Shown piece after piece: positions 7,803 through 50,513 of a stretch of 64,000 bases of DNA (position 1 is its first letter; the number at the start of each line of letters is the position of its first letter). Both the position numbers and the translations under genes were made by a program. The stretch is from contig NZ_CP030048.1 of NCBI RefSeq assembly GCF_015291665.1, positions 7,103,501 to 7,167,500 of the forward strand. The letters run 5' to 3'. Below the pieces are notes generated by a model that was not told the origin of the DNA, ran no database searches, and was given only the letters and a program-made list of their open reading frames with translations. The DNA comes from Bradyrhizobium sp. CCBAU 53338 (lineage in GTDB: Bacteria; Pseudomonadota; Alphaproteobacteria; Rhizobiales; Xanthobacteraceae).

Positions 7803-7821
7803 GGCGCGAAGGAGAACAATC

Positions 7822-8133: not shown

Positions 8134-8996
8134 TGAAGGCCCGCACCGCCCTCCTGCTGTCTTCGCTCAGCGCCGCGCTGGTCGCGTTCGCGCTCACCTC
8201 TCCGCGCGTTGTTGCGGCCGACAAGATCGATCCCGTCGCCGACGCCAAGGCATTCCAGAACTACTTCTTCCACAAGTTTCCCGATGTGAAGCATGAGGAT
8301 TTCGTCAACGGTCCTTATTCCATGAACGAGGGCATGAGGCGGCAGTGGCAGGAGAAGGAGGAATTCCCGCCCTACGAGTTTGTGCTCGACGCCGGCAAGG
8401 AGATGTTTTCGACGCCGTTCAAGAACGGCAAGACCTATGCCGACTGCTTCCCCGACGGTGGCATCGGCATTCGCCAGAACTATCCCTATTTCGACACGAA
8501 GGAGGGCAAGGTCGTCACGCTGGAGCTCGCGCTCAACCGCTGCCGCGAGGCCAATGGCGAACAGCCCTACTCCTACGTCAAGGACGAGATGGCCTCGCTC
8601 ACGGCGTACATGGCCTTCACCTCGCGCGGCAAGCCGATGGACATCAAGATCCCCGATGACCCCCGTGCGCGCGAAGCGTTCGAGAACGGCAAGCGCTATT
8701 TCTACACCCGCCGCGGGCAGCTGAATTTTTCCTGCGCGAGCTGCCATGTGCAGAGCCCGGGCCAGCGCATCCGCGCCGAGATCCTGGCGCCCGCGCTCGG
8801 CATTCTGAACGCGATGCCGATCTACCGCTCCGAATGGAACGGCATGGGCACGATCAGCCGCCGCTTCATCACCTGCAACAGCCAGACCCGCGCGGTCCCG
8901 CTGGAGCCGCAGGCGGAAGAATATCGCGACGTCGAGTATTTCCTGTCCTACGTCGCCAACGGCCTGCCGATTTCGGGCCCGGGAGCGCGGCCATGA
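8133..8996 (+). CDS. soxA: Sulfur oxidation c-type cytochrome SoxA (monoheme form)
   Basis: A 287-residue periplasmic cytochrome, the catalytic subunit of SoxXA, which joins thiosulfate to the SoxY cysteine. A signal peptide occupies about residues 1-29. The heme site is C201-A-S-C204-H205. The active-site cysteine, a heme ligand as persulfide in studied SoxA proteins, is C248 in RRFITCNSQTRAVP. The N-terminal heme site of diheme homologues is missing: only C105 (YADC) and C137 (LNRC) remain, probably as a disulfide, as in known monoheme forms. Starts by a one-base overlap with soxZ and ends with an ATGA overlap with the next gene. Confidence 0.95.
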   Translation: MKARTALLLSSLSAALVAFALTSPRVVAADKIDPVADAKAFQNYFFHKFPDVKHEDFVNGPYSMNEGMRRQWQEKEEFPPYEFVLDAGKEMFSTPFKNGKTYADCFPDGGIGIRQNYPYFDTKEGKVVTLELALNRCREANGEQPYSYVKDEMASLTAYMAFTSRGKPMDIKIPDDPRAREAFENGKRYFYTRRGQLNFSCASCHVQSPGQRIRAEILAPALGILNAMPIYRSEWNGMGTISRRFITCNSQTRAVPLEPQAEEYRDVEYFLSYVANGLPISGPGARP

Positions 8997-9298
8997 AGCG
9001 GTCACTTCCCTTGGCCATGTTGCTGCTCATGAGCCTCGCACCATCCGCGCGCGCGGCAAGCGAGGCAGACTACAAGGCGGCTTACGCTGCTGCGGAGGCT
9101 GCGTCCAAAGAGGCAACCGGCATGCGCAACCAGTGGACCACGACCGTCTCGACGCTGGCGGCCGCCAAGAAGGCGGGCGATGGCGGCGATTTCGACCGCG
9201 CCGTGGCCGCCGCCAAGGAAGCTGAGGCGCTGGCGAAAGCGTCGATCTTCCAGGCGACATCGGAAAAAGAGGCCTGGAAGGCAATGGAAATCCGCTAG
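8993..9298 (+). CDS. SoxXA-binding protein (SoxK/SAXB-like)
   Basis: A 101-residue secreted helical protein. A signal peptide (MKRSLPLAMLLLMSLAPSARA) is followed by an Ala/Lys/Glu-rich sequence built of repeated EADYKAAYAAAEAA and GDFDRAVAAAKEAEALAKAS units, which predicts a short helical hairpin. Small proteins of this composition encoded right after soxA in other bacteria are known as SoxK or SoxXA-binding protein and increase SoxXA activity. It overlaps the soxA stop by four bases (ATGA), so it is translated with it. Identification rests on position and composition, not on conserved catalytic residues. Confidence 0.8.
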   Translation: MKRSLPLAMLLLMSLAPSARAASEADYKAAYAAAEAASKEATGMRNQWTTTVSTLAAAKKAGDGGDFDRAVAAAKEAEALAKASIFQATSEKEAWKAMEIR

Positions 9299-9352
9299 CG
9301 TGAGCCCTGGTGGAACGATCGACCTGCCGAGACCAGGCGCGGAGACTGTGTG

Positions 9353-31451: not shown

Positions 31452-31491
31452 TGCGACGGGCTGAAGACTAGCAGCTTGCGGAGGGCGCAGG

Positions 31492-32439
31492 ATGTTTGCC
31501 TATCTGGTACGGCGCCTGTTCCTGATGCTCGTGACCCTGTTCGGGATCTCGATCGTCATCTTCTTCCTGTTGCGCATCGTCCCCGGCAACATCGTCGACA
31601 TCCTGTTCGCCGCAGCCGGCTATGTCGACCCCGCCGACAAGGCCAATCTGGAGAAGGAGCTCGGCATCGACCAGCCGCTGATCATGCAATACTGGCACTG
31701 GATCAGCGGCTTTCTGCGCGGCGATTTTGGCTACTCCTACGTCTCCGAGAAGCCGGCGCTGCAGGAGATTTTGCCGCGGATTCCGATCACCGCACGGCTC
31801 GCCGGGCTGGCGCTGCTGTTCTCGGCTTCGATCGGCATTCCGCTCGGCGTCATCAGCGCGGTGAAGCAGGGGTCGCGGATCGACTACGCGTTGCGTGTGG
31901 TGAGCCTGAGCGGATTGTCCCTGCCCTCGTTCTGGCTCGGCCTTCTGGTTCTGACCGCATCGGTCGCAATGTTCGGACAGATGCCGATCTTCAATCCCAA
32001 TCCGCAGAGTTTTGGCGAGGCATTCGCGACCTATTGCATCCCGGCGATGGTGGTCGGCTTCCGCAGTTCGGCGCTGACGATGCGCATCACGCGCTCGTCC
32101 ATGCTGGAGGTGCTGAGGCAGGACTATATCCGCACCGCGCGCGCCAAGGGCGCCTCTGACGCCGCGGTGAACTATCACCATGCGCTGAAGAACGCGATCC
32201 TGCCCGTCATCACCGTGATCGGCATCGAGGCGGCGTTCCTGATCGGCGGCCTCATTGTCACCGAGACGGTGTTCAACATCCCCGGCGTCGCCCGCTTCCT
32301 GGTCGAGGCGATCCGCTGGCGCGATTATCCGATCGTGCAAAATCTCGTGATGTTCATCGCCATCGTCGTGGTGTTCGCGAACTTCACCGTCGACATGCTG
32401 TACGCGGTGTTCGACCCGCGTATCCGGTACACGGACTAG
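31492..32439 (+). CDS. ABC transporter permease (DppB/OppB-like)
   Basis: A 315-residue inner-membrane permease with six hydrophobic helices. It starts MFAYLVRRLFLMLVTLFGISIVIF, typical of DppB, and carries the cytoplasmic EAA-type loop ARAKGASDAAVNYHHALKNAILP that contacts the ATPase. The loop before helix 2 has LGIDQPLIMQYW. GGAGG is upstream. It is followed nine bases later by the second permease. Forms the transmembrane channel with it for the bound ligand of the preceding binding protein. Confidence 0.93.
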   Translation: MFAYLVRRLFLMLVTLFGISIVIFFLLRIVPGNIVDILFAAAGYVDPADKANLEKELGIDQPLIMQYWHWISGFLRGDFGYSYVSEKPALQEILPRIPITARLAGLALLFSASIGIPLGVISAVKQGSRIDYALRVVSLSGLSLPSFWLGLLVLTASVAMFGQMPIFNPNPQSFGEAFATYCIPAMVVGFRSSALTMRITRSSMLEVLRQDYIRTARAKGASDAAVNYHHALKNAILPVITVIGIEAAFLIGGLIVTETVFNIPGVARFLVEAIRWRDYPIVQNLVMFIAIVVVFANFTVDMLYAVFDPRIRYTD

Positions 32440-35425: not shown

Positions 35426-37402
35426 CTACCTCGCCTCGATCTCCGCGACGATCCTACCCGTGGTCACCTGCTCGCCTTCGGCGACATCGATCGCCGCCAC
35501 TACACCGTCGATGCCGGCCTTGTGGACGTGCTCCATCTTCATCGCTTCCAGCGTCAGCACCGGCTGGCCTGATGTGACGCGATCGCCCGGCTTGACCAGC
35601 ACGGCGACGACACGGCCGTTCATGGCGGCGCGAACCTTGCCGTCGCCTCCATTGCTTGCGGCCGCCTTCGGTGCAGCGAGCGTGAGATCGGTGACCGCGA
35701 GCGGGATGCCGCGATGCTGGACGTAGAGCCGGTCGCCATCGCGCAGGAACTTTGCGCTGTCCATGACGCCGTCGTGGCGGAAGCGAATCGCGTCAGCGTC
35801 GAGCTGGTCGATCTCGAACTTGTCCTGGCGGCCGTCAGCGGCGACAATGTAGCTGCCGTCGCGCTCGCGGGTGACTTCGAGCTCGAGCGCCTGGCCTCCA
35901 ATCTCGATCTTCGCGGGCAGTGGAAACGTTGCCGACAAGCTTCGGCCGTTTCGCCATGACGGCGCGCGCGGGTTGGTGACGTAGAGCAACAGGCCGGCCA
36001 ACGCGGTGTCGAATGCAGTGTCCGCACGCGGCGCCAGCAGTTCGTCGCGATGCGCGCCGATGAAGGCTGTCGTCGCCTCGCCCTTGGCAAAGCCGGGATG
36101 TCGCAGGCACGACATCAGGAACGCCTGGTTGGTGGTCACGCCAAGCGCGGTGAGCCGCTCCAGCCCGACGATGAGCCTTCCCCTGGCCTCCTCCCGCGTG
36201 GCACCGTAGCTGATCACCTTGGCGATCATGGAATCGTAGAACGGCGGGATCTCCGTGCCCGATTGCAGCGCGTGCTCGACGCGGATGCCTTCCGGCACTT
36301 GCCAGCACGCCATGCGGCCTGACTGCGGCATGAAGTCCTGCGCGGCATCTTCCGAGCAGAGCCGCACCTCGATGGCGTGACCGAAGAACTTGACGTCCTG
36401 CTGCTTCACCGGCAGTGGTTCGCCGCGCGCGACGCGCAGTTGCAGCTCGACCAGATCGAGTCCGGTGATCGCCTCGGTGACGGGATGCTCGACCTGGAGA
36501 CGCGTGTTCATCTCCATGAAGTAGAATTCGCCGTTGGCATCGAGCAGGAATTCCAGCGTGCCGGCGCCCTCATAGCGCAGCGCCTTCACCGCTGCGACCG
36601 CGACCTCGCCCATCTTCGCGCGCAGGTCCGGCGTGACCGCGGGCGACGGCGCCTCTTCGATCAGCTTCTGGTGACGCCGCTGCACCGAGCAGTCGCGCTC
36701 CCCGAGATGGATGGCGTTGCCGTGGCTGTCGCCGAACACCTGGATCTCGATGTGGCGGGGATTCTGGATCGCGCGTTCGAGAATGACGGTGGGATCGCCG
36801 AAGGCCGCCTTCGCTTCCGAGCGCGCGCTGCGCAGGGCATCGCCGAACGATGCGGCATCAGGGACAAGCCGCATGCCGCGACCACCGCCGCCGGCAACCG
36901 CCTTGATCATCACCGGGAAGCCGATCTTTTTGGCTTCCGCGAGCATGACCTCATCGCCCTGATCGGCGCCCTGATAACCGGGCACGCAGGGCACACCGGC
37001 TTTCTTCATGATCTCCTTGGCACCGGCCTTGTTGCCCATCGCCTCGATTGCCTGCGGCGACGGGCCGATGAAGACGAGGCCGGCATCCTTGCAAGCTTGC
37101 GCAAAATCCTCGTTCTCGGCGAGGAAGCCGTAGCCGGGATGCACGGCGTCCGCGCCACTCGCCTTGGCGGCTGCGATGATCGCGGGGATGTTGAGATAGG
37201 ATTGCGCCGGCAAAGCCTCGCCGATGCGCACGGCCTGGTCGGCCTGCTTGACGTGGAGCGCGTCGCGATCCGCATCCGAATAAACCACGACGACGCCAAG
37301 GCCGAGCTGCCGGGCGCTGCGCATCACACGCAGTGCGATCTCGCCGCGATTGGCGACCAGAACCCTGGAGAACGGCCGATGCTGCACTGATCCGTTCCTC
37401 AT
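35426..37402 (-). CDS. Biotin-dependent acyl-CoA carboxylase, alpha subunit (biotin carboxylase + BCCP)
   Basis: A 658-residue enzyme with an N-terminal biotin carboxylase (RVLVANRGEIALRVMRSARQLG; ATP-grasp signature VAGGGGRGMRLV; conserved FMEMNTRLQVEHPVTE) and a C-terminal biotinyl domain whose AMKMEH motif places the biotin on Lys622. It transfers CO2 to the acyl-CoA bound by the beta subunit. The length and layout match methylcrotonyl-CoA or geranyl-CoA carboxylases (3-methylcrotonyl-type), more than short propionyl-CoA ones. The start at 37402 overlaps the beta-subunit stop by four bases. Substrate probably a branched or unsaturated acyl-CoA, but unproved. Confidence 0.92.
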   Translation of the reverse strand: MRNGSVQHRPFSRVLVANRGEIALRVMRSARQLGLGVVVVYSDADRDALHVKQADQAVRIGEALPAQSYLNIPAIIAAAKASGADAVHPGYGFLAENEDFAQACKDAGLVFIGPSPQAIEAMGNKAGAKEIMKKAGVPCVPGYQGADQGDEVMLAEAKKIGFPVMIKAVAGGGGRGMRLVPDAASFGDALRSARSEAKAAFGDPTVILERAIQNPRHIEIQVFGDSHGNAIHLGERDCSVQRRHQKLIEEAPSPAVTPDLRAKMGEVAVAAVKALRYEGAGTLEFLLDANGEFYFMEMNTRLQVEHPVTEAITGLDLVELQLRVARGEPLPVKQQDVKFFGHAIEVRLCSEDAAQDFMPQSGRMACWQVPEGIRVEHALQSGTEIPPFYDSMIAKVISYGATREEARGRLIVGLERLTALGVTTNQAFLMSCLRHPGFAKGEATTAFIGAHRDELLAPRADTAFDTALAGLLLYVTNPRAPSWRNGRSLSATFPLPAKIEIGGQALELEVTRERDGSYIVAADGRQDKFEIDQLDADAIRFRHDGVMDSAKFLRDGDRLYVQHRGIPLAVTDLTLAAPKAAASNGGDGKVRAAMNGRVVAVLVKPGDRVTSGQPVLTLEAMKMEHVHKAGIDGVVAAIDVAEGEQVTTGRIVAEIEAR

Positions 37403-39015
37403 GGCCGGGCAACCGAAAACTGCATACGCTGCGGGGTGCGCGCATCGCCCTCGCGGCAGATCGCGAGCACTTCGGAGAGGACCGCACGGGTGTCGCGCGG
37501 ATCGATCACACCATCATCGAGCACGCGGGCGCTGGTCGAGAACACGTCCATCTGACCGTCGAACACGCCGACGATCTGCGCCTTCATCGCGTCCAGCTTT
37601 TCCTTCTCGACCGGCTTGCCACGGCGTGCGGCTGCGGCCTCGGTCACGATCGCCATGGTCTCGGCCGCCTGCTCGCCGCCCATCACCGCGGTCTTGGCAT
37701 TGGGCCAGGAGAAGCAGAAGCGTGGATGGAAGCCGCGGCCGCACATGCCGTAATTGCCGGCGCCGAACGAGGCCCCGCAATAGATGGTGATCTGAGGCAC
37801 CGTCGCCGAAGTCACCGCCTGGATCATCTTGGAGCCGTGCTTGATCATGCCGGCTTCTTCATAGGCCTTGCCGACCATGTAACCGGTGGTGTTGTTGAGA
37901 TAGAGGATCGGCGTGCGGGTCTGGCAGCAGGCCTGGATGAAATGCGTCGCCTTGTTGGCGCCGGCGGGATCGAGCGGTCCGTTGTTGGTGATGATGCCGA
38001 TCGCCTGGCCCTCGATGCGGGCATGCCCGCAGACGGTGGCCGGACCGTAGTTCGGGGCCATCTCGGTGAAGTCGGAATCGTCGACGATGCGCGCGATCAC
38101 CTGCTTCATGTCGACCGGGCGCTTGTGGTCCATCGGCATGATGCCGAGCAGCTCGTCCTGATCGTAGCGCGGCGGCTTGAAGTCCGGCAACTCCCTGCCG
38201 GGCCGTTCCCATTCCAGCGCCGCCATGATCTCGCGGGCGATGCGCAGCGCATCGCGATCGTCCTCGGCGAGATAGTCCCCGAGGCCGGACACCTGCGTGT
38301 GCATCTCGGCGCCGCCGAGCTCTTCCTCGGTCGCGATCTCGCCGGTTGCAGCCTTCAACAGCGGCGGCCCCGCGAGGAACGCGCGGGTGCGCCCGCGAAC
38401 CATGACGATGTAGTCGGACAAGCCAGTCTGGTAGGCACCGCCTGCGGTGGACGAGCCGTGCGTGACGGTGACGACGGGCAGGCCAGCCGCGGAGAGCCGC
38501 GCAAGATTGCGAAAGATGTTGCCGCCGCGAACGAAGTCCTCGACGCGGTAGCGCAGGAGATTGGCGCCGGCGCTTTCGACGAGCTGGACGTAAGGCAGCT
38601 TGTTCTCCAGCGCGAGTTCCTGCACCCGCAGGGTCTTGTCGAGGCCGTAGGGCTGCAGCGCGCCGGCATCGATACCGGAGTCGCTGGCGCTGACCATGCA
38701 TCGAACACCCGAGACGAAGCCGATGCCGGCGATGACGCCGCCCCCCGGCACGCTCCTGGCCACATCCGACACGTCGAACATGTAGCCGGCGAGCGTGGAG
38801 AGCTCGATGAAGGGCGCGCCGGGATCGAGCACCAGCGCGACGCGCTCGCGCGGCAGCAGCTGACCGCGCTTATGGAAGCGGTCCTTTGCGGCCGCCGATG
38901 CAGCACGCGTGCGCTCTTCGAGTGACCGCATGCGGTCGATCAGGCCGAGCATGCCGTCACGGTTGGCGTGATAGGCGGCACTGCCGGGGGAAATGGTGTT
39001 TTCGAGAATGGACAT
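37399..39015 (-). CDS. Acyl-CoA carboxylase, beta subunit (carboxyltransferase)
   Basis: A 538-residue carboxyltransferase. Diagnostic segments are AAAKDRFHKRGQLLPRERV, the oxyanion/acyl-CoA segment VTHGSSTAGGAYQTGLSDY and FSWPNAKTAVMGGEQAAE in the C-terminal half, which is the 3-methylcrotonyl/geranyl-CoA carboxylase pattern. The true start is ATG at 39015, with GGAG five bases before it; a TTG directly upstream adds one residue. Coupled to the alpha subunit by a four-base overlap. A palindromic repeat lies between it and the BKACE gene. Confidence 0.93.
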   Translation of the reverse strand: MSILENTISPGSAAYHANRDGMLGLIDRMRSLEERTRAASAAAKDRFHKRGQLLPRERVALVLDPGAPFIELSTLAGYMFDVSDVARSVPGGGVIAGIGFVSGVRCMVSASDSGIDAGALQPYGLDKTLRVQELALENKLPYVQLVESAGANLLRYRVEDFVRGGNIFRNLARLSAAGLPVVTVTHGSSTAGGAYQTGLSDYIVMVRGRTRAFLAGPPLLKAATGEIATEEELGGAEMHTQVSGLGDYLAEDDRDALRIAREIMAALEWERPGRELPDFKPPRYDQDELLGIMPMDHKRPVDMKQVIARIVDDSDFTEMAPNYGPATVCGHARIEGQAIGIITNNGPLDPAGANKATHFIQACCQTRTPILYLNNTTGYMVGKAYEEAGMIKHGSKMIQAVTSATVPQITIYCGASFGAGNYGMCGRGFHPRFCFSWPNAKTAVMGGEQAAETMAIVTEAAAARRGKPVEKEKLDAMKAQIVGVFDGQMDVFSTSARVLDDGVIDPRDTRAVLSEVLAICREGDARTPQRMQFSVARP

Positions 39016-39027
39016 CAAAGCTCCTAC

Positions 39028-39127
39028 CCGTCATTCCGGGGCGCGCGTAGCGCGAGCCCGGAACCCATACTCCCGATCGTGGTTATGGATTCCGGGCCTG
39101 GCCCTTCGGGCCATTCCGGAACGACGG
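39028..39127. repeat. Interspersed repeat (GTGGTTATGGAT type)
   Basis: CCGTCATTCCGGGG near the left end and CCGGAACGACGG at the right end, with GTGGTTATGGAT at 39079-39090 and an inner GGCCTGGCCCTTCGGGCC-like hairpin. Copy of the element at 29503-29638. It sits inside the carboxylase/BKACE cluster, in the gap between two same-strand genes. Confidence 0.7.
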
Positions 39128-39136
39128 AGTGTGTGA

Positions 39137-40003
39137 CTACCTGTTCGTCCCAAAGATCTTCCGCGCCTCGGCGGGGCTGGCGATTTCGCGGCCGGCGCGG
39201 CGGGCGCAGGCGGCGATGGCCTCGATCAACTGGCCGTTCGACGTCACCTTCTTGCCGTCGGCGAGATAGAACGCATCCTCGAGGCCGGTGCGTAAGTGCC
39301 CACCGAGCTCGGCACAGCGCTGGTGCAGCGGCCAGATCTCTTCGCGGCCGATCGCGGTGACCTGCCAGTGCGCTTCCAGGCGCTTCAGCTTGATCAGGAT
39401 CGGCAGCAGCTCGGGATCAGCGGGCATGCCGGAGGCGACGCCCATCACGAAGTTGTACTCGAGCGGACCCTTGTACATGCCGACCTGGTGATACATGCCG
39501 ACGCAGCGCACGATGCCGACGTCGAAACATTCGAACTCTGGGATGGTGCCGACCGCGTTCATGACGTCGAGATAGTCCTTCACCTTCTCGACCGCGTTGT
39601 CGAACATCATCGGCGGCCAGGCCCAGGTGTTGTCGGCCTTGACCTTGAGATAATTCAGCGAGCCGGCGTTGCAGGCGGCGATCTCCGGCCTGGTCTCGCG
39701 GATGCAGTCGAGCGCGCCGGAGTAGTTCGGCCCCGACACGCCCGAGGTGTGGTTGATGATGACGCCGGGGCAGGCTTCGCGGATCGCCTGCTGGATCTCC
39801 TTGCTGACGCTCACTTCCCAGGACGGCAGATGGCCCTTGTTCGGCGCCTGCTGGCGCAGATGGATGTGCATGATCGACGCGCCCGCATCGAACGCCGCCT
39901 TGGCCTCCCGCGCCATCTGCTCGGGCGTCACAGGTACGTTGTGCTGCTTCGGGTCGGTGAGCACGCCGTTCAGCGCGCAGGTGATGACGGCCTTGTCGCT
40001 CAT
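39137..40003 (-). CDS. Beta-keto acid cleavage enzyme (BKACE, DUF849)
   Basis: A 288-residue (alpha/beta)8 zinc enzyme. With ATG at 40003 the metal-binding His residues are H46 and H48 in MHIHLR, at the same positions as in 3-keto-5-aminohexanoate cleavage enzyme. The conserved N-terminus is AVITCALNGVLTDPKQH, with GGHLRTGLED near the C-terminus providing the last Glu ligand. BKACE enzymes split a beta-keto acid with acetyl-CoA to a new CoA ester and acetoacetate. The substrate of this branch is unknown. No clear ribosome site is seen; an upstream in-frame ATG at 40048 adds 15 residues not like the family. Confidence 0.87.
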   Translation of the reverse strand: MSDKAVITCALNGVLTDPKQHNVPVTPEQMAREAKAAFDAGASIMHIHLRQQAPNKGHLPSWEVSVSKEIQQAIREACPGVIINHTSGVSGPNYSGALDCIRETRPEIAACNAGSLNYLKVKADNTWAWPPMMFDNAVEKVKDYLDVMNAVGTIPEFECFDVGIVRCVGMYHQVGMYKGPLEYNFVMGVASGMPADPELLPILIKLKRLEAHWQVTAIGREEIWPLHQRCAELGGHLRTGLEDAFYLADGKKVTSNGQLIEAIAACARRAGREIASPAEARKIFGTNR

Positions 40004-40111
40004 GCCAATGATGTCTCGCAACGTTGAGAATTCAACGCCTGCGATCATGTGATGCAGGGCATGCGGCTTCTTGCGCGGAGAAGCTGGGAAAAGCGACGAA
40101 TCGCGGCCGCG

Positions 40112-40915
40112 CTATCCCGCCTCCGCGAGCTCCCGCACCGTCTCGCTGCTGCGATAGATCGCAAGGTCGCGCGAGCCGACGAAGATCGCCCGCGGCTTCA
40201 ATCCATAGAAGCGGCGGATCGAATGGCTGAAATGGGTCGAGTCGGGATAGCCGATGTCCTGCGCGAGATGGGCGAGGTTGAGGTCCTGGTTGGCGAAGTG
40301 CAGCAGATGCCGCGCACGCTTCCAGGCGCGGAAGGAGCGGAAGGAGATGCCGGTCTCTTCCTTGAACAGATGCAGGAAGCGCGAGGCCGAGAGGCCCGCT
40401 TCGGCGGCACAGGTGTCCGCTGTCACCGGCTCGCCGGAGAAACGCTCGATGCGAGCGACGGCGCGCGTCACGCGCGGGTCGAGCACACGGCGTGGCAGCG
40501 CCTCGCCAAAGCACATCTCGTCGAATTCGGCGGTGGCGATGTCGCCGTAGCGGCGCTGCCGCAGCAGCGCGTAAGCCGCGAGGATCTTTCGGGCATACAC
40601 TGGCCGGTCGGGTCCCATCAGCCGCTGGGCCAGATCTTCCAGCACGCCATCCGGCATGCTTTCGGGCTCGAGCGTCACGCTGATGGCGGTGCGGTAGTCG
40701 CTGGCGATGGAGTGCCGCTGGTTTGGCAGGGTGACGAACAGCTCGGCCGTGGCGGGAACGTCGTCGATCGTCATGTGCAGGCTGCCCTTCACTGCGACAT
40801 AGACGTGGCAGCAACCTGGGGTCCGCTTGCGGGGCCGGCCGAGCAAGCCGGCATAGAAGACCCGCTCCGGCGTGATCAGCATCAGATGGTCGGATTCGCG
40901 ACCCTTGTCTTCCAT
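40112..40915 (-). CDS. AraC family transcriptional regulator
   Basis: A 267-residue regulator. The N-terminal half resembles a cupin ligand domain (CCHVYVAVKGSLHMTIDDVPA...). The C-terminal half has the two AraC helix-turn-helix units, with CAAEAGLSASRFLHLFKEETGISFRSF and the second around LAHLAQDIGYPDSTHFSHSIRRFYG. ATG at 40915 has AGGAGG seven bases before it; longer starts upstream (41017) lack support. Located on the same strand upstream of the BKACE and carboxylase genes, so it is the obvious candidate regulator of the cluster, with the effector unknown. Confidence 0.92.
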   Translation of the reverse strand: MEDKGRESDHLMLITPERVFYAGLLGRPRKRTPGCCHVYVAVKGSLHMTIDDVPATAELFVTLPNQRHSIASDYRTAISVTLEPESMPDGVLEDLAQRLMGPDRPVYARKILAAYALLRQRRYGDIATAEFDEMCFGEALPRRVLDPRVTRAVARIERFSGEPVTADTCAAEAGLSASRFLHLFKEETGISFRSFRAWKRARHLLHFANQDLNLAHLAQDIGYPDSTHFSHSIRRFYGLKPRAIFVGSRDLAIYRSSETVRELAEAG

Positions 40916-41024
40916 CGGGGATCCTCCTCGCGCGGCTCTTTGGCCGCTGCGGACGGAGGTCACCTTAGCGGAAATTTGGGCGCTGTCACGACGGGATAGC
41001 GCTGTCATCGCGCGCAAAACATTA

Positions 41025-41116
41025 CCGTTCCGGGACGACCGAAGGGCGGGCGCGGAACCTCGCGCTGCAACTCCTGGATTCCGGGTTCGCGCTATTGCGC
41101 GCCCCCGGAATGACAG
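41025..41116. repeat. Interspersed palindromic repeat
   Basis: CCGTTCCGGGACGA at the left and CCCCCGGAATGACAG at the right, with CTGGATTCCGGGTTCGCGC and GCGCGCCCCCGG in between, again of the C-type palindrome family. It separates the AraC gene from the GST gene, on whose stop side it lies. Confidence 0.65.
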
Positions 41117-41122
41117 CCTCCC

Positions 41123-41778
41123 TTACGCCCTCACCCTTGGCGCAACATTCTGCTCGGTGCCCGCCTTCTGCTCCGCAGCAACCGCGCGGTTGAACCCATC
41201 GCGCTGCTGCAAGCGCGCCCAATAGGCCGCGACACCAGGTCCAAAATCCTTGGCGAGACCGATATTTTCCGCGAGGCGGAGTGCATAACCAATGACAATG
41301 TCAGCGGCGGTGAACCGGCCGGCGCACAAGGTTTCGGCATTCGCGGTCGCTGCCTCTACTGCGCGCAGCCGCCCCAGGAACCACTTCGCATAGTCGGTGG
41401 CGACCTGGGGGTTACGGCGCTCCTCAGGCTCGAGCTGGGTGTAGCGGAGCACCAGCGTTTGCGGGAACGTTAACGTGGCGTCGCTGAAATACATCCAGTT
41501 CAGGAAGGCGCCATAGGCGGGATCGTCGGGACCGACCATCAGCGGCGTCGGGCCGTATTTGACGCCGAGATAATGGCAGATGCCTGATGACTCCGTCATC
41601 TTGGTCTCGCCGTCGACCATGAAGGGAATCGTGCCGAGCGGATTGAGCGCGAGGTATTCCTTGGCGAAGACGCGCGGCGGGAACGGCAACATCTTCAGCT
41701 CATAGGGCAGCCCCATCTCCTCCAGCATCCAGAGCGGACGGAACGAGCGCGCGGCGTCGCAGTGATAGAGCGTGATCA

Positions 41779-41779
<1 letters not shown>
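41123..41779 (-). CDS. Glutathione S-transferase family protein
   Basis: A 218-residue soluble protein with the N-terminal thioredoxin-like fold: ITLYHCDAARSFRPLWMLEE, with a Ser or Cys position for glutathione activation, then KEYLALNPLGTIPFMVDGETKMTESSGICHYL. The C-terminal helical domain follows from about residue 90, with LCAGRFTAADIVIGYALRLAENIG. Its start overlaps the stop of the acyl-CoA dehydrogenase by one base (TGATG), so it is in the same operon. GSTs in such clusters may detoxify or isomerise an intermediate; this is inference. Confidence 0.88.
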
Positions 41780-42945
<1,166 letters not shown>

Positions 42946-42957
42946 TTCTTCCTCTCG

Positions 42958-44094
42958 TCACAACCCCATCTGCCGCGACGCCAGATCCTTCATGATCTCC
43001 TCGGTGCCGCCGCCGATGGCATTGACCTTGACTTCGCGGTAGATGCGCTCGGCCTTGATGCCGCGCATAAAGCCGGCGCCGCCAAAGATCTGAACGGCTT
43101 CGGAAGCGCAGAACGCCATGGTCTGCGTCGCCTGGTTTTTCATCATGCAGATTTCTGCCACCGGGCTTTCGCCCTGCTCGAGTCGCCAAGCCAGCATTTC
43201 CAGCATCGCTTGCGACGCCGCAACCTTCTGCGCCATGTCGACGATCTTGTGCCTGATGACCTGATGCTGGGCGAGCGGCTTGCCAAAGGTCTTGCGCTCC
43301 TTGGCGTAGGCGACCGCCTCGTCGAGACAGACGCGGGCAAAGGCGGTGCAGCCCGCGGCCATGCCCATGCGCTCGCTGTTGAAGTTCTGCATGATGATCT
43401 TGAAGCCTTGGCCCTCCTCGCCGATCAGGTTTTCGGCCGGCACACGGCAATCGTCGAAATGCAGCGTCGCGGTGTCGGAGGCCCACCAGCCCATCTTTTT
43501 CAGCCTGGTGCGCGACAGGCCGGGCGTATCGCCTTCGATCAGGAGCAGGCTGACACCGCCGGCACCCTCGCCGCCCGTACGCACCGCAACGGTCAGATAA
43601 TCGGCGCGCACGCCCGAGGTGATGAAGGTCTTCTCACCGCTCACGACGTAGTGATTGCCGTCGCGCCGGGCGCGGGTACGGAGGCTCGCGACATCTGACC
43701 CGCCGCCCGGCTCGGTGATGGCGAGCGCCGAGATCTTCTCACCTGACAGCACCTGCGGCAGCACGCGTGCCTTCACTTCGGGCCGCGCTGCGCGGGCGAT
43801 CGGCGGCGAGCCGATGGTGTGGCTCATCAGACTGGCGCTGACGCCGCCGGCACCTGCCCGCGCCAATTCCTGGCTCGCAACGATCTTCATGAACTGGTCG
43901 GCGGCGATCCCGCCATATTCCTCGGGGAATCCGAGGCCCAACAGGCCGATCTCGGCCGCCTTGCGATAGAGCGCACGAGGGAATTCGCCGGCCTCGTCCC
44001 ACTCATGGGCGAACGGCGCGATCTCCTTGTCGACGAAGCGGCGCATCACGTCGCGGAAGGCGTCGTGCTCGGCGGTATAAAACGGGCTCTTCAT
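42958..44094 (-). CDS. Acyl-CoA dehydrogenase
   Basis: A 378-residue FAD enzyme. N-terminal FYTAEHDAFRDVMRRFVDKEIAPF, the flavin motif ITEPGGGSDVASLRT, and C-terminal IFGGAGFMRGIKAERIYREVKVNAIGGGTEEIM. As in its neighbour, the YEGT-type Glu position is Gly (GGGTEE). The start at 44094 is chosen because the product starts directly with the family N-terminus; a longer frame from 44145 adds 17 residues without a ribosome site. Two different dehydrogenases in one operon suggest two separate oxidation steps, or a heteromeric pair. Confidence 0.93.
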   Translation of the reverse strand: MKSPFYTAEHDAFRDVMRRFVDKEIAPFAHEWDEAGEFPRALYRKAAEIGLLGLGFPEEYGGIAADQFMKIVASQELARAGAGGVSASLMSHTIGSPPIARAARPEVKARVLPQVLSGEKISALAITEPGGGSDVASLRTRARRDGNHYVVSGEKTFITSGVRADYLTVAVRTGGEGAGGVSLLLIEGDTPGLSRTRLKKMGWWASDTATLHFDDCRVPAENLIGEEGQGFKIIMQNFNSERMGMAAGCTAFARVCLDEAVAYAKERKTFGKPLAQHQVIRHKIVDMAQKVAASQAMLEMLAWRLEQGESPVAEICMMKNQATQTMAFCASEAVQIFGGAGFMRGIKAERIYREVKVNAIGGGTEEIMKDLASRQMGL

Positions 44095-44360
44095 GGCGTG
44101 CGCGCCTTCGACGACTCTCTTCTCGTTCCACCATGGCTGGAACATCGCCGGCTCACTTGCGCGCAGTGGCTGGCTGGGGGAGCAGCACCTCGCGGGTCAT
44201 GGCCTAGCAACTCAACGCAAGACGATTTTCACCCCTCGCAGGCCAACTCCAAATCAAAAAAGACTGCTGCACAGAAACTCCGGCTGGCCTCCCAGGGCCA
44301 GCCGGGCATGGTGCACAGCAATAAAATTCAGGCGGCACAAGACCGCCGAGGGAGGAAGCG

Positions 44361-45911
44361 TTGGCCGTTCGTTACTACGACTGGATCGCTCATCATGCGC
44401 GCCGCGCTCCCGGCAAGGTCGCGACCATCGATCTCGCGAGCGGCCGCCGCTTCACCTATGCAGAGCTCAATGCGCGCGTCTCGCACCTCGCCTCGTTCTT
44501 CCGTCATACGCTGAAGGTTGCGCGCGGCGATCGCGTCGCGGTGCTGGCGCTGAACACGACCGACACGCTGGAGGTGCAGTTCGCGTGCGGACGATTGGGT
44601 GCCGTCTTCGTGCCCCTGAACACCCGCCTCACCGTCCCCGAGCTTCAGTTCATCACCGGCGATTGCGCGCCGAAGGTGATGATCCACGACACCGATCTGG
44701 CCGAGACGGCGCTGAGCGTCGCAAAGCTCTGCAACGTCGCGACAAGTTTGCTGCTCGGGCCCGGCGGCGCTTATGAGGCAGGCATCGCCGCGGCGAAACC
44801 GCTCGAGCGCGCCGAAGAAGTCACGCTCGATGATATCTCGACCATCATGTACACGTCGGGCACGACGGGACACCCGAAGGGCGCGACCATTACGCATGGC
44901 ATGACCTTCTGGAATTGCGTCAATCTCGGCGGGCCCGCCTGCATCGGGCCGTCCTCGGTGCTGCTCACCGTGCTGCCGCTGTTCCACACCGGCGGATTGA
45001 ATTGCTACACCAACCCGGTCCTGCATGCCGGCGGCACCGTGATGATCATGCGTGCCTTCGATCCCGGCACGGCGCTCGGCCTGATCGGCGACCCGGCGCA
45101 GGGCATCAACGTGTTCTTCGGCGTGCCCGCGATCTACCAGTTCATGGCGCAGCATCCGGCGTTCGCAACGACCGATCTGTCCCGATTGATCGTCGGCGGT
45201 GTCGGCGGCGCGCCGATGCCGTTGCCGCTGCTGAAAGCTTGGGAAGCGCGCGGCGTCGCGCTTCAGCAGGGTTACGGCATGACCGAGACCTCGCCGGCCG
45301 TGCTGGTGCTCGATCGCGAGGACGCGGCGCGCAAGGCCGGCTCTGCCGGCAAGCCGGTGCTGCACACGGAGGTCCGCATCGTCCGCCCCGACGGCAGCGA
45401 TGCCGATGTCGGCGAGCTCGGTGAGCTCTGGGTCAAGGGACCGAACATCACGCCGGGCTACTGGAACAGGCCCGAGGCGAACAAGACCTCCTTCACCGAC
45501 GGCTGGCTGCACACCGGCGATGCAACCCGCGTCGATGACGAGGGCTTCTACTACATCGTCGACCGCTGGAAGGACATGTACATCTCCGGCGGCGAGAACG
45601 TCTATCCGGCGGAGGTCGAGAACGTCCTGCACCAGCTCACCGCGATTGCGGAGGCCGCGGTGATCGGCATTCCCGACCCGCAATGGGGCGAGGTCGGCCT
45701 CGCCATCGTCGCGGTCAAACAAGGCCAGCGGCTGACCGAGGCCGACGTCTTCGCCCATTGCGCGGCCAATCTGGCGCGCTTCAAATGCCCGCGGCAAATC
45801 CGCTTCATCGATGCCCTGCCGCGCAACGCCACCGGGAAGATCCACAAGCCGACCCTGCGCAAGGAATTCTCGGTGGCTTCCGAAGTCGACAAGAATGTCG
45901 CCAATGCCTGA
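44361..45911 (+). CDS. AMP-forming acyl-CoA ligase (long-chain fatty acid/aryl-CoA type)
   Basis: A 516-residue ANL ligase. It has the P-loop MYTSGTTGHPKG, the adenylate-binding GYGMTETSPA, the motif DVGELGELWVKGPNITPGYWNRPE, and the C-terminal PRNATGKIHKPTLRKE with catalytic Lys. TTG at 44361 follows GGGAGGAAG, a strong ribosome site. It is divergent from the acyl-CoA dehydrogenase operon across about 265 bases and presumably activates the substrate of the cluster. A hairpin terminator with T-run follows the stop. Confidence 0.93.
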   Translation: MAVRYYDWIAHHARRAPGKVATIDLASGRRFTYAELNARVSHLASFFRHTLKVARGDRVAVLALNTTDTLEVQFACGRLGAVFVPLNTRLTVPELQFITGDCAPKVMIHDTDLAETALSVAKLCNVATSLLLGPGGAYEAGIAAAKPLERAEEVTLDDISTIMYTSGTTGHPKGATITHGMTFWNCVNLGGPACIGPSSVLLTVLPLFHTGGLNCYTNPVLHAGGTVMIMRAFDPGTALGLIGDPAQGINVFFGVPAIYQFMAQHPAFATTDLSRLIVGGVGGAPMPLPLLKAWEARGVALQQGYGMTETSPAVLVLDREDAARKAGSAGKPVLHTEVRIVRPDGSDADVGELGELWVKGPNITPGYWNRPEANKTSFTDGWLHTGDATRVDDEGFYYIVDRWKDMYISGGENVYPAEVENVLHQLTAIAEAAVIGIPDPQWGEVGLAIVAVKQGQRLTEADVFAHCAANLARFKCPRQIRFIDALPRNATGKIHKPTLRKEFSVASEVDKNVANA

Positions 45912-45914
45912 TCA

Positions 45915-45946
45915 AAGCGCCCCTTCGCGGGCGCTTCTGTTTTTTG
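45915..45946 (+). terminator. Intrinsic terminator after the ligase gene
   Basis: AAGCGCCC at 45915-45922 and GGGCGCTT at 45929-45936 form the stem with a short loop, followed by CTG and a run of six T at 45940-45945. A good rho-independent terminator just after the stop codon; the binding-protein gene starts 53 bases later and so has its own promoter or reads through. Confidence 0.85.
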
Positions 45947-45998
45947 ACGTGCCTGCCCCAACCCAGAAGAATCGCCAAGGAAAAACCAAGGAATTTTC

Positions 45999-47219
45999 AT
46001 GAACAAGAAACTCCCCCTGCTTGCCGCAGCGACCGCGCTGACGCTGCTCTCAACCCAGGGCGCCTTTGCCCAGAAGACATACGACACCGGCGTCACCGAC
46101 ACCGAGATCAAGATCGGCAATGTCGAGGCATATTCCGGCCCGGCGTCCGCCTACGGCATCATCGGCAAGACCGAGGAAGCCTATTTCAAGATGATCAACG
46201 ATCAGGGCGGCATCAACGGCCGCAAGATCAACTTCATTTCCTATGACGATGGCTATTCGCCGCCGAAAACGGTGGAGCAGATCCGCAAGCTGATCGAGAG
46301 CGACGAGGTCTTCCTCGTGTTCAACGCGCTGGGCACACCGACCCAGACCGCCGTGCAGAAATATCAGAACTCCAAGAAAGTGCCGCAGCTCTTCCTCGCC
46401 ACCGGCGCCAGCAAGTGGAACGATCCGAAGAACTTCCCCTGGACCATGGGCTTCCAGCCCAGCTACCGGGTCGAGGCACGGATCTTCGCAAAATACATTT
46501 TGAAGGAGAAGCCGGACGCGAAGGTCGCGATCTTCTATGCCAACGACGATTTCGGCAAGGACTACCTTGCCGGCATCAAGGACGTGTTCGGCGACAAGGC
46601 CTCGAAGCTGATCGTGGCCGAGGAAAGCTACGAGACGTCGGAGCCCTCGATCGATGCGCATATCGTCAAGCTCAAGGATACAGGCGCCGATGTCTTCGTG
46701 AACATTTCGACCCCGAAATTCGCGGCTCAGGCCATCAAGAAGATCGCCGAGCTTAACTGGAAGCCGATGCATCTGATGACCGACGTGTCGGTGTCGATCG
46801 GGGCGGTGATGAAGCCCGCCGGCTTCGAGGCTTCCGAGGGCGTGCTCTCGGCCGGTTACCTGATGGATGCGTCCGATCCGCAGTGGAAGGACAACGAGGG
46901 CATGAAGAAGTTCCTGGCCTTCATCGACAAGTACATGCCCGGCGCCAACATCTCGGACACCAACCTGGTCTACGGCTACGCCGCCGCCCAGACGATGGTG
47001 CAGGTGCTGAAGCAGGCCGGCGACAATCTCACCCGCGAGAACGTGATGAAGCAGGCCGCGAGCCTGAAGGACTTTATCCCGGATACGCTGATCCCGGGGA
47101 TCAGGATCAACACGTCGGCCAACGATTTTGCGCCGATCGAGCAGCTGAAGATGTGGCGGTTCAAGGGTGGTCACTGGGAGCTGTTCGGCGACATCATCAG
47201 CGCCGAGGTCGGCGGCTAG
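45999..47219 (+). CDS. ABC transporter substrate-binding protein (LivK-type)
   Basis: A 406-residue periplasmic protein. Signal peptide MNKKLPLLAAATALTLLSTQGAFAQ; family start DTEIKIGNVEAYSGPASAYG; DGGYSPPKTVEQIRKL-like segment (here YDDGYSPPKTVEQIRKLIES) and ANDDFGKDYLAGIKDVFG. It binds a small organic acid or amino acid for an importer not encoded nearby. Following the ligase gene on the same strand it could bring in the substrate of the cluster. Separate from the ligase by the terminator at 45915. Confidence 0.9.
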   Translation: MNKKLPLLAAATALTLLSTQGAFAQKTYDTGVTDTEIKIGNVEAYSGPASAYGIIGKTEEAYFKMINDQGGINGRKINFISYDDGYSPPKTVEQIRKLIESDEVFLVFNALGTPTQTAVQKYQNSKKVPQLFLATGASKWNDPKNFPWTMGFQPSYRVEARIFAKYILKEKPDAKVAIFYANDDFGKDYLAGIKDVFGDKASKLIVAEESYETSEPSIDAHIVKLKDTGADVFVNISTPKFAAQAIKKIAELNWKPMHLMTDVSVSIGAVMKPAGFEASEGVLSAGYLMDASDPQWKDNEGMKKFLAFIDKYMPGANISDTNLVYGYAAAQTMVQVLKQAGDNLTRENVMKQAASLKDFIPDTLIPGIRINTSANDFAPIEQLKMWRFKGGHWELFGDIISAEVGG

Positions 47220-47297: not shown

Positions 47298-48071
47298 CTA
47301 TCCCGGCAGCAAGAGCGCAAAGGATTCCTCGACGGTACGGCGCAAATGATCGCGGTAGATTGCATGGTTGACGTCGCCAGGCGCGATCCGCCCCAGCGAC
47401 GGAGTCGGGACATTCTTGAGCGGCACATAAGCGATCGGCGCAGCGACCGGCGTCAATTGCGAGCCGGCGCCGGCGCGCAGCGTCGAGATGATGCCATACA
47501 TCGCGCCAGTCACGGTAGGCCGCGACACCGTGATCACCCGGTGCTGGCCATGCTTGTTGATGACAAGATAGATGAATCCGGACTGATGCGGCACCGCGAC
47601 TTCGCCGGTGTGCTCGTAGGCCGCGTCCGTCCGCTCGCCCTCGCGGAAGACCAGCGAGGAGACCTTTGGCTCCCAGACGATCTCGGTGCGATAGGCAAAG
47701 ATCGCATCCTTGTCGCCAAAGGAAGGTCGCAGCGTGATGTAGACACCCTCGAGCCATGTCACGGCGCGATGCGAATAGGAGCCGAGGCCGTCAGGGGCGA
47801 CATCGCTGCCTGCCGCGGGCGCCGGCGCAACCTGGCTCTTGCGCAGGGACACGCCTAGCGCCTGCTCCAGCCGGACCGTGGTCGCCAGTGTGAACGGACG
47901 ACGGCCGCCGAGCGCCTTTTCCAGCGTCGACAGGCTGAGCTTGGCCTGCTCGGCCAGCGCCTGCCGCGAGATGCGGCGCTTGGCGATTTCCTCGCGGATC
48001 GTCTCTGCAACCTCCCGGCTCTGCTCGTCCGAAAGCTGCTTGTCAGAGAGCTTGTCTTGCGTCTGCATCAT
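47298..48071 (-). CDS. XRE-family transcriptional regulator
   Basis: A 257-residue protein. Residues about 20-75 form a helix-turn-helix of the XRE kind: RISRQALAEQAKLSLSTLEKAL, then TTVRLEQALGVSL. The rest (about 95-257) is a non-DNA-binding domain with WLEGVYITLRPSFGDKDAIFAYRTEIVWEP and HRVITVSRPTVTGAMYGI, not recognised as a known ligand domain. It is divergent from the VWA/sortase operon with about 183 bases between, so it may regulate it. Two adjacent ATG codons at 48071 and 48068 are possible starts. Confidence 0.83.
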   Translation of the reverse strand: MMQTQDKLSDKQLSDEQSREVAETIREEIAKRRISRQALAEQAKLSLSTLEKALGGRRPFTLATTVRLEQALGVSLRKSQVAPAPAAGSDVAPDGLGSYSHRAVTWLEGVYITLRPSFGDKDAIFAYRTEIVWEPKVSSLVFREGERTDAAYEHTGEVAVPHQSGFIYLVINKHGQHRVITVSRPTVTGAMYGIISTLRAGAGSQLTPVAAPIAYVPLKNVPTPSLGRIAPGDVNHAIYRDHLRRTVEESFALLLPG

Positions 48072-48254: not shown

Positions 48255-50513
48255 ATGGACAATTACGACACGGTCGACAGCGACGAACACCCTTGGCTCG
48301 GCAGGCTGATCAAGGTCGGGCTGTTCCTGCTGGCGCAGAGCATCGCCGTGCTCCTGGTCAGTTTCGTGGCCCTGCTGGTGAGCTTCGAGACCTCCTGGTC
48401 GGCGACGACGGAGCAGGCGAGCCTGCTTCAGCCTGGGGACGCCAAATCCGGCACCCTCCTGCTTAGGGAAGACGTTGCCTATACTGAAGCCATCCGCCTC
48501 GGGATCGACGTCGACGTCACGGTCTCTGGTCCGACGCTGCGCACGCGCGTCACACAGATCTTCCGCAATCCGACCAAACACTGGGTCGAGGCGACCTATG
48601 TCTATCCGCTGGCGAGTGCCGGCGCGGTCGACACGCTGAAGATGGTGGTCGGCGATCGCGTCATCGTCGGCGACATCAAGGAGCGTCAGCAAGCGCGAAC
48701 CATCTACGAGCAGGCCCGCCGCACCGGGCAGAAGGCCGCACTCACCGAGCAGGAGCGGCCGAACATCTTCACCAACTCGGTCGCCAATATCGGCCCCGGC
48801 GAAACCGTGCTCGTGCAGATCGAATATCAGGAGCCGGTGCATCAATCAGGCAACGAATATTCGCTGCGCGTGCCGCTGGTGGTCGGGCCGCGCTACAATC
48901 CGGCACCGATCGTGCAGAGCGTCGACTTCCGCAAGGACGGCTCCGGCTGGGGCGCAACCACGTCCGACCCGGTGCCGGACCGTGACCGCATCTCGCCACA
49001 GGTCCTCGATCCCGCCGAGAACGCGCCGGTGAATCCGACCAGCATCACGGTGCATTTGCATTCCGGCTTTGCGCTCGGCGAGGTGAAGAGCCATTACCAC
49101 AACGTCAAGATCGAGAGCCCCGACGACACGACACGCGTGGTGACGCTTGTCGACGGCACCGTGCCCGCCGATCGCGACTTCGAGCTGACTTGGAAGCCGG
49201 CCGCCCAAAAGGCGCCTTCGGTCGGCCTGTTCCGCGAGCACGTCGGCGATGCCGACTATCTGCTCGCCTTCGTCACGCCGCCGGCCGCCGAGCAGGCCAC
49301 GCAGAAGCCGCGGCCGCGCGAAGTGGTGTTCGTGATCGACAATTCCGGCTCGATGGGCGGCACCTCGATCGAGCAGGCCAAGGCGAGCCTTCTCTACGCA
49401 CTCGGCCGCCTCCAGCCGAACGACCGCTTCAACGTGATCCGCTTCGACGATACCATGGACGTATTGTTTCCGGCCTCGGTTCCGGCCGACGCTGCGCACG
49501 TCGGTGAAGCGACCTCGTTCGTCAGCGCATTGCAGGCCCGCGGCGGCACCGAGATGGTACCGGCGATGCGTGCGGCCCTGACCGACAAGCTCGCCGACAC
49601 CAGCATGGTTCGCCAGATCGTCTTCCTGACCGACGGCGCGATCGGCAACGAACAGCAATTGTTCGAGACCATCACGGCGATGCGCGGCCGCTCGCGCATC
49701 TTCATGGTCGGCATCGGCTCCGCGCCCAACACCTACCTGATGACGCGGGCCTCCGAACTCGGTCGCGGCGCCTTCACTCATATCGGCTCCGTCGAGCAGG
49801 TCGAGGAGCGCATGCGCGGCCTGTTCGCCAAGCTGGAGAATCCCGCCGTGACCGGCCTCAGCGCAAAATTCTCCGAAGCCAAGGCCGATATCACCCCCGC
49901 GATCATCCCCGACGTCTACCGCGACGAGCCGCTGGTGCTGGCGGCGAAGCTCGACAAGCTCGCGGGCTCGCTGGAGATCAAGGGTCGCGTCGGCGACCGG
50001 CCATGGTCGGTGACGCTGCCGCTGCAAAATGCCGCCGAAGGCAAAGGCCTGTCGAAACTCTGGGCCAGGCGCAAGATCAGCGATGCCGAGGTGGCGCGGA
50101 CGCTCCGCGAGATGACCCCTGAGGATGCCGACAAGACCATCCTTGCGCTGGCCCTCGACCATCAGATCGTCACGCGGCTGACCAGTCTCGTCGCAGTCGA
50201 CAAGACGCCGAGCCGGCCCGAAGGTGAACCGCTCGAGCTCAGCGAACTGCCGATCAACCTGCCGGCGGGCTGGGATTTCGCGAAGGTGTTCGGCGAACGG
50301 CCGCAGCTGACGCCGGCGCAATTGCGCGAACGCCGCGCCGATGCAGGCCAGCCTGCAGCAAGGCCGGCCCCGGTCACGTCGGATTCGATCCGCTTGCCCA
50401 AGACCGCGACCTCGGCCGAACTGAAGATGATCGCAGGCCTGGTCATGATCGCACTCGCCCTGATCCTGTTCGTGTTCAACCGGCGTCGGACCTTGCTCAC
50501 CGACGCTGCTTGA
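48255..50513 (+). CDS. VIT and VWA domain surface protein with LPXTA sorting signal
   Basis: A 752-residue membrane-anchored protein. Near the N-terminus is one hydrophobic segment (LFLLAQSIAVLLVSFVALLV). A VIT domain follows (about residues 80-210; IFRNPTKHWVEATYVYPL, then ARTIYEQARRTGQKAALTEQ). A VWA domain has the MIDAS D362-x-S364-x-S366 in VFVIDNSGSMGG. The C-terminus has LPKTA at 714-718, a hydrophobic segment and Arg-rich tail (FNRRRTLL), a sorting signal for the dedicated sortase gene 90 bases downstream. This matches the 'marine proteobacterial sortase target protein' family. Probably displayed outside the inner membrane; ligand unknown. Confidence 0.92.
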   Translation: MDNYDTVDSDEHPWLGRLIKVGLFLLAQSIAVLLVSFVALLVSFETSWSATTEQASLLQPGDAKSGTLLLREDVAYTEAIRLGIDVDVTVSGPTLRTRVTQIFRNPTKHWVEATYVYPLASAGAVDTLKMVVGDRVIVGDIKERQQARTIYEQARRTGQKAALTEQERPNIFTNSVANIGPGETVLVQIEYQEPVHQSGNEYSLRVPLVVGPRYNPAPIVQSVDFRKDGSGWGATTSDPVPDRDRISPQVLDPAENAPVNPTSITVHLHSGFALGEVKSHYHNVKIESPDDTTRVVTLVDGTVPADRDFELTWKPAAQKAPSVGLFREHVGDADYLLAFVTPPAAEQATQKPRPREVVFVIDNSGSMGGTSIEQAKASLLYALGRLQPNDRFNVIRFDDTMDVLFPASVPADAAHVGEATSFVSALQARGGTEMVPAMRAALTDKLADTSMVRQIVFLTDGAIGNEQQLFETITAMRGRSRIFMVGIGSAPNTYLMTRASELGRGAFTHIGSVEQVEERMRGLFAKLENPAVTGLSAKFSEAKADITPAIIPDVYRDEPLVLAAKLDKLAGSLEIKGRVGDRPWSVTLPLQNAAEGKGLSKLWARRKISDAEVARTLREMTPEDADKTILALALDHQIVTRLTSLVAVDKTPSRPEGEPLELSELPINLPAGWDFAKVFGERPQLTPAQLRERRADAGQPAARPAPVTSDSIRLPKTATSAELKMIAGLVMIALALILFVFNRRRTLLTDAA

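Follow-up and report, generated by a model that had tools for sequence, protein, structure and literature searches.

Bradyrhizobium sp. CCBAU 53338 carries a nine-gene catabolic cluster, at positions 35426 to 47219 of a 64,000-nucleotide stretch of its genome (contig NZ_CP030048.1, positions 7,103,501 to 7,167,500; hereafter the window), that appears to encode a variant of the Atu pathway, the studied route for acyclic isoprenoid acids. The cluster would strip a branched, terpene-like acid of its blocking beta-methyl group, with a zinc enzyme of the beta-keto acid cleavage family (BKACE, DUF849) taking over C–C cleavage, and we put the probability of this reading at about 0.6. On the best reading, BKACE performs, or bypasses, the cleavage credited to AtuA or LiuE, and the substrate is probably a beta-methyl branched acid. 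Sequence comparison and gene context place a geranyl-CoA carboxylase (GCC)-type enzyme and an AtuD-type acyl-CoA dehydrogenase (ACAD) in one conserved unit with an acyl-CoA ligase and, less constantly, a binding protein, and place BKACE in the slot of AtuA. The lyase step of the Atu pathway is poorly defined: one source credits it to LiuE, another to AtuA, and a third calls the role of AtuA "speculated". The exchange of AtuA for BKACE makes this step directly testable.

BKACE and AtuA at geranyl-CoA carboxylase loci

GCC-type beta subunits (E up to 1e-150) were sought in a single draw of 398 genomes from the window's phylum, which yielded 47 loci in 45 genomes. Their neighbours were judged from the sequence of 30 stretches and of seven further non-Bradyrhizobium stretches, and by coordinates for seven of the ten Bradyrhizobium loci. 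BKACE adjoins the carboxylase at 15 loci, AtuA at 22, neither at 10 and both at none. This exclusion has a Fisher p of 4.6e-6 by locus and 0.015 by genus, AtuA being found in 0 of 5 BKACE genera versus 13 of 20 other genera. Conversely, BKACE and a GCC-type beta subunit lie no more than 5 kb apart in 15 of the 16 genomes of the draw that carry this BKACE subfamily.

The strongest point for BKACE replacing AtuA is the match of position. Locus L111 has the order BKACE-SDR-beta-ACAD1-ECH-alpha-SDR-ACAD2 (SDR, short-chain dehydrogenase/reductase; ECH, enoyl-CoA hydratase) and is colinear with Pseudomonas-type loci, which read AtuA-SDR-beta-ACAD1-ECH-alpha-SDR; BKACE stands at the front for AtuA, and the genome of L111 gave no AtuA match. 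Similarly, the alpha-BKACE adjacency of L106, L139, L154, L155 and L157 parallels alpha-AtuA in L173, L174, L206, L210 and L234. At least six changes between the two states are required over the 46 rows of the carboxylase tree, and BKACE distances follow those of the beta subunit (r 0.89 over 20 loci, matched in 0 of 2000 permutations). That a zinc enzyme whose chemistry is known has naturally and repeatedly replaced AtuA suggests that both do equivalent work.

The AtuA family, PF07287, has no match in the window genome and matches in 7 of the 22 BKACE-subfamily genomes searched. Seven AtuA stretches from six BKACE genomes were inspected, and a GCC-type carboxylase adjoins AtuA in G398 only, as a second, separate locus. 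The match in G217 is weak. Bradyrhizobium sp. AS23.2 (P0128) has an AtuA 78% identical to that of Achromobacter, together with a BKACE locus (L019). AtuA and BKACE were also considered as homologues and rejected, as no sequence relationship was found by hhalign (probability 0.4%).

Identity of the carboxylase and dehydrogenases

The carboxyltransferase beta subunit (37399..39015, minus strand; AtuC-like) scores 624 bits against Pseudomonas GCC beta 5ikl, its best PDB match, versus 482 bits against the beta subunit of 3-methylcrotonyl-CoA carboxylase (MCC), 3u9r. According to Jurado et al. (PMC4673880), a Gly in GCC is replaced in MCC by Phe, preceded by a three-residue insertion, and this switch decides between large and small substrates. 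The column was placed by alignment because the MCC numbering in that paper disagrees with the chain numbering. The window protein has Gly at this position, with one extra residue but without the three-residue insertion of MCC. An N-terminal helix is a further GCC feature in PMC4673880, and the alignment of the window protein with GCC beta starts at residue 15. The switch residue is Gly in 54 of 56 GCC-type rows, the others having Ala (1) and Ser (1), and on the tree the window protein falls among the GCC-type rows, in the half without 5ikl. The alpha subunit (35426..37402, minus strand; AtuF-like), a biotin carboxylase and biotin carrier protein with the Pfam domains Biotin_carb_N, CPSase_L_D2, Biotin_carb_C and Biotin_lipoyl, adjoins a GCC-type beta subunit in nearly all loci examined. 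By sequence, then, the carboxylase is of the GCC type and not the leucine type. Given the GCC-type sequence and the pocket Gly, its substrate should therefore be a beta-methyl enoyl-CoA larger than 3-methylcrotonyl-CoA.

The same enzyme classes would be expected if the cluster were a duplicate of the Liu pathway for leucine and isovalerate, yet this is highly improbable, as the beta subunit has the Gly of GCC and lacks both the Phe and the insertion of MCC, and the genome holds a separate leucine-type cluster (L112; G000:C1:4170000-4189900, 5170-11013). That cluster comprises an acyl-CoA dehydrogenase, a carboxylase pair whose beta subunit has Phe and the three-residue insertion, and a 3-hydroxy-3-methylglutaryl-CoA (HMG-CoA) lyase, with TRAP transporter genes adjoining. 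A copy of the leucine pathway was thus rejected on the residue test.

A deeper carboxylase branch (support 91) is formed by L141 (G777) and L175 (Nonomuraea); it keeps the Gly, and one row has BKACE nearby, the other AtuA. Because this branch shows both states, the alternation of BKACE and AtuA may predate the GCC clade.

ACAD1 (41779..42945, minus strand, ACAD Pfam domains) is 65-68% identical to the dehydrogenase at the AtuD position of Pseudomonas-type atu operons and 59-90% identical to its counterparts in GCC loci elsewhere, whereas the next best dehydrogenase reported from its own genome reaches 36% (matches at E up to 1e-60). These identities make it the AtuD counterpart, a predicted citronellyl-CoA dehydrogenase-type enzyme. 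The initial annotation had stated that the gene combination does not match the citronellol pathway, which is not borne out by the carboxylase (sequence, key residue and tree) or by ACAD1. It had also reasoned that grouping with a leucine or geraniol enzyme would speak against a new combination if the partner genes lay elsewhere; the carboxylase does group with the geraniol enzyme, yet its partners are local.

ACAD2 (42958..44145, minus strand, ACAD Pfam domains) accompanies many GCC loci of the BKACE type and of the type with neither BKACE nor AtuA. Because an ACAD2 of at least 50% identity occurs in just 3 of the 22 AtuA-type loci, ACAD1 and ACAD2 do not have to oxidise a single molecule in succession. 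Of the single catabolic unit first proposed for these genes, import, activation, oxidation, carboxylation and BKACE cleavage are thus retained as the likely plan, while two successive oxidations are not required.

BKACE features and a possible lyase role

The BKACE gene lies at 39137..40003 on the minus strand (PF05853, 278.6 bits). Its longest frame runs to 40048; the start was set at 40003 because homologues are mostly about 288 aa long. Kce, the 3-keto-5-aminohexanoate cleavage enzyme, served as reference for its residues, in which we take His-His-Glu to be the zinc site, Glu/Arg/Asp to be catalytic, and Glu14 to bind the amino group. All 23 module BKACEs compared keep the two zinc His, the zinc Glu and the active-site Glu, Arg and Asp, and all 23 have Leu at the Glu14 position, which fits a substrate with a hydrophobic tail. 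In another BKACE a Glu is assigned as the base in PMC11961710, and its equivalence to the Kce residue is assumed here. The window protein matches four NCBIfam models, each with a score under its cut-off (NF052387, 191 bits against a cut-off of 382); with Glu14 replaced by Leu, identity with Kce of lysine fermentation was rejected. A second BKACE of the same genome (L113, 9341-10174) is just 30% identical, and its 20-kb stretch has no GCC-type carboxylase.

It is possible, if doubtful, that BKACE is itself the lyase, its zinc binding the carboxylate and tertiary alcohol of 3-hydroxy-3-alkylglutaryl-CoA so that the C–C bond is broken directly and neither AtuA nor HMG-CoA lyase is needed. The replacement of AtuA in its slot and the three genera that have the module without HMG-CoA lyase are in line with such a role, as is the sole credible PDB match of an AtuA profile (9erq/9evf, E 3e-6), named by its depositors as AtuA family protein / citramalate lyase subunit A; citramalate lyase, by name, cleaves a tertiary hydroxy acid. 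This naming would also fit an acetate-releasing lyase role for AtuA. Against the lyase role of BKACE, no precedent for its chemistry on tertiary alcohols is known to us, the crotonase could instead be a hydratase-lyase, and the chemistry described for the family in PMC11961710 and PMC4922564 is an acetyl-CoA-dependent exchange in which a beta-keto acid and acetyl-CoA give acetoacetate and a new acyl-CoA. No paper linking BKACE with geranyl-CoA carboxylase or AtuA was found in the open-access literature searched, so that absence from print is weakly supported.

HMG-CoA lyase and leucine-type genes

HMG-CoA lyase was scored as present when NF004283 exceeded its cut-off. Among BKACE genomes of at least 90% completeness it is missing in 5 of 19, from three genera (G004, G059, G1191, G1173 and G1299, the last assembly with 6% contamination), and BKACE loci can therefore exist without that lyase. 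The AtuA genome G078 lacks it too, as does G114, where the locus is truncated. The genomes scored as lacking the lyase have weak matches only, in longer frames of 437-588 aa. Two of the genomes lacking the lyase, G004 and G059, keep leucine-type carboxylase loci (L143 and L144; Phe was seen for L143), which makes BKACE a candidate for finishing leucine breakdown there. In G078, an AtuA-type GCC locus (L214) adjoins a dehydrogenase 69% identical to that of L112. The idea that genomes lacking HMG-CoA lyase have a crotonase of a special kind was considered and set aside: crotonases of the module and of the AtuE type, in loci of all types, mostly have Gly at what we take to be the first catalytic Glu, with no separation.

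Homologues of HMG-CoA lyase are present in the window genome; two exceed the family cut-off, one of them in the leucine-type cluster. This, together with the ten GCC loci that adjoin neither BKACE nor AtuA, would suit a scheme in which BKACE acts on some other substrate, or on a beta-keto acid formed later, and shares regulation only, the housekeeping HMG-CoA lyase performing the cleavage of the GCC pathway; because such loci exist, the operon need not include either protein where HMG-CoA lyase is present. We regard the scheme as unlikely in view of the exact slot replacement, the mutual exclusion with AtuA, the co-divergence of BKACE with the beta subunit, and the genomes without HMG-CoA lyase.

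Putative cis/trans isomerases

Some glutathione S-transferases (GSTs), maleylacetoacetate isomerase for example, are isomerases that use a thiol. The GST of the cluster (41123..41779, minus strand, GST_N domains) has counterparts in the type A loci described below and in a Tistrella carboxylase locus. Five GCC loci of the window's class, none with this GST, contain a maleylpyruvate-isomerase-like gene (L109 8664-9500, L211, L215, L216, L232); the L109 protein, the only one tested, exceeds the TIGR03084 cut-off. PMC8637051 describes a conversion of trans-geranyl-CoA to its cis isomer, in a passage that names no enzyme for it. This gene context is suggestive of a role for the GST as a thiol-dependent cis/trans isomerase, and points to candidates for the step.

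Versions of the cluster in other genera

The BKACE subfamily is common in Bradyrhizobium and its relatives (73 of 296 genomes of the window's family) and has a scattered occurrence elsewhere (16 of 398 genomes in the phylum, Bradyrhizobium accounting for 10 of these). Type A clusters, found in most other genera of the family, in G004 and G059 and on a Haematobacter plasmid, usually contain ACAD1, GST, BKACE, a different ligase, beta, alpha and an enoyl-CoA hydratase. In type B clusters (G318, G246, G398, G1191, G1173, G1299), BKACE stands at one end of a set made up of the beta, ACAD1, hydratase and alpha genes, and there is no GST; frequently an SDR precedes beta and ACAD2 is added, and in G1191 and G1173 the hydratase follows ACAD2. 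The Haematobacter cluster, the only plasmid-borne BKACE record at E up to 1e-40, adds beta-oxidation genes and adjoins a complete branched-chain-type ABC importer. G067 has beta, a maleylpyruvate-isomerase-like gene and BKACE, and its best ACAD1 match is just 39% identical.

The hydratase noted as missing from the window is indeed absent locally, and no AtuE, isohexenylglutaconyl-CoA hydratase, was found in L147, the stretch from the window. In many other genera the module includes an enoyl-CoA hydratase gene in the same cluster, and many have a different ligase inside the operon; the hydratase seems to have been lost from the Bradyrhizobium cluster, which apparently relies on a ligase of its own. 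With the queries used, no hydratase was matched in the leucine-type cluster of the window genome either.

Proposed pathway

In the proposed pathway, the acid would be imported and joined to CoA, and ACAD1 would make the CoA ester alpha,beta-unsaturated, with the GST possibly interconverting its cis and trans forms. The carboxylase would then act on the beta-methyl (gamma) carbon, and a crotonase, which in Bradyrhizobium would have to be encoded outside the cluster, would hydrate the product to 3-hydroxy-3-alkylglutaryl-CoA. In the conservative version, an HMG-CoA-lyase-like step would free acetyl-CoA and a beta-keto acid, R-CO-CH2-COO-, which BKACE would convert to acetoacetate and R-CO-CoA for beta-oxidation. 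Since HMG-CoA-lyase-type cleavage yields exactly acetyl-CoA and a free beta-keto acid, BKACE would finish without a further ligase. Where HMG-CoA lyase is lacking, BKACE or the crotonase would also have to perform the lyase step. With neither SDR nor local hydratase in Bradyrhizobium, pathway entry is probably at the level of the acid.

A bolder version, which we hold only tentatively, makes the BKACE subfamily a new HMG-type lyase for 3-hydroxy-3-alkylglutaryl-CoA in GCC pathways. It would replace both AtuA and HMG-CoA lyase, and acetoacetate might arise by direct transfer of the two-carbon fragment to acetyl-CoA. It may then serve leucine breakdown where a leucine-type carboxylase lacks HMG-CoA lyase, with the GST or the maleylpyruvate-isomerase-like protein as cis/trans isomerase.

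Several observations weigh against the Atu-variant reading. Phylogeny-corrected independent pairs point in the same direction as the exclusion of AtuA by BKACE and are not significant (8 pairs, median p 0.125). Ten of the 47 GCC loci have no adjoining BKACE or AtuA, AtuA elsewhere in those genomes having been searched in G122 only; L213, L222 and L145 are cut by contig ends, and two, L142 and L145, come from G122, in which BKACE and the carboxylase are on different contigs. The association of BKACE with loss of HMG-CoA lyase falls short of significance (lost in 5 of 19 BKACE genomes and in 2 of 29 other GCC genomes; p 0.10), and we know of no BKACE that acts on a tertiary hydroxy acid. A hydratase of more than 45% identity is absent from the 10-kb flanks of all 69 Bradyrhizobium loci with full flanks, the rest of the genome not having been searched, and in the PDB the GST resembles only generic GSTs (best E 3e-14). 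Finally, the Bradyrhizobium cluster has an AraC regulator, not the TetR-type AtuR, and lacks the SDRs AtuB and AtuG.

Gene content and genomic setting

The nine genes predicted by the initial annotation were all recovered, with agreeing reading frames and Pfam domains. The remaining three encode the AraC-family regulator (40112..41017, minus strand, HTH_18, start uncertain) and, divergently on the plus strand, the acyl-CoA ligase (44361..45911; AMP-binding, 291 bits) and a LivK-type periplasmic binding protein (45999..47219; Peripla_BP_6). Alpha and beta overlap by 4 bases, GST and ACAD1 by 1 base, and 12 bases separate ACAD1 from ACAD2.

Conservation was assessed in the best 80 BKACE loci, all of them from Bradyrhizobium and 69 with full flanks, using author-chosen identity thresholds. 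The window BKACE is up to 98-99% identical to those of many named strains, and members of the genus share the core order ACAD2-ACAD1-GST-AraC-BKACE-beta-alpha. ACAD2, GST, AraC, BKACE, beta and alpha are present in 69 of 69 full-flank loci, ACAD1 is kept by identity threshold in 64, the divergent ligase in 62 and the binding protein in 50, so that the nine-gene grouping exceeds chance. The description of the cluster as an island, or as a mobile one, finds no support: GC content is 0.60-0.67 across the window with no step at the cluster, the 64 kb contain no tRNA, and conservation is genus-wide.

The HTH protein at 47298-48071 and the VIT protein at 48255-50513 have no match in the loci of other genera and are taken as mere neighbours. 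Peptide-type ABC transporter genes (29853-32439) lie on the opposite strand to the core cluster, and a protein with ADP-forming acyl-CoA ligase domains (51317-53536) shows no link to it. In Achromobacter pA82 (L173), a gene annotated as acetate-CoA ligase family adjoins the carboxylase.

Comparison with known systems

The cluster offers a pathway for a BKACE subfamily. With Kce and its relatives, the window BKACE shares the Pfam family, zinc ligands and catalytic residues; it differs as a distinct subfamily, with Leu for Glu14 and a place beside GCC carboxylases. The Liu pathway has the same logic of dehydrogenase, gamma-carboxylase, hydratase and lyase, but the window carboxylase has a GCC-type pocket residue and the cluster has no HMG-CoA lyase gene. 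Closest is the Atu system of Pseudomonas (atuABCDEFGH), with which the cluster has in common the GCC-type carboxylase subunits and the AtuD-type dehydrogenase, while related genera also have the crotonase and SDRs, with L111 matching the Atu gene order. Unlike in Atu, BKACE replaces AtuA, a GST is added, and in Bradyrhizobium the hydratase is not local. The cluster is not classed as an Atu operon because AtuA, a local AtuE and the expected regulator are absent; it is a rearranged Atu cluster with BKACE and without AtuA, working like an Atu operon with a different cleavage enzyme.

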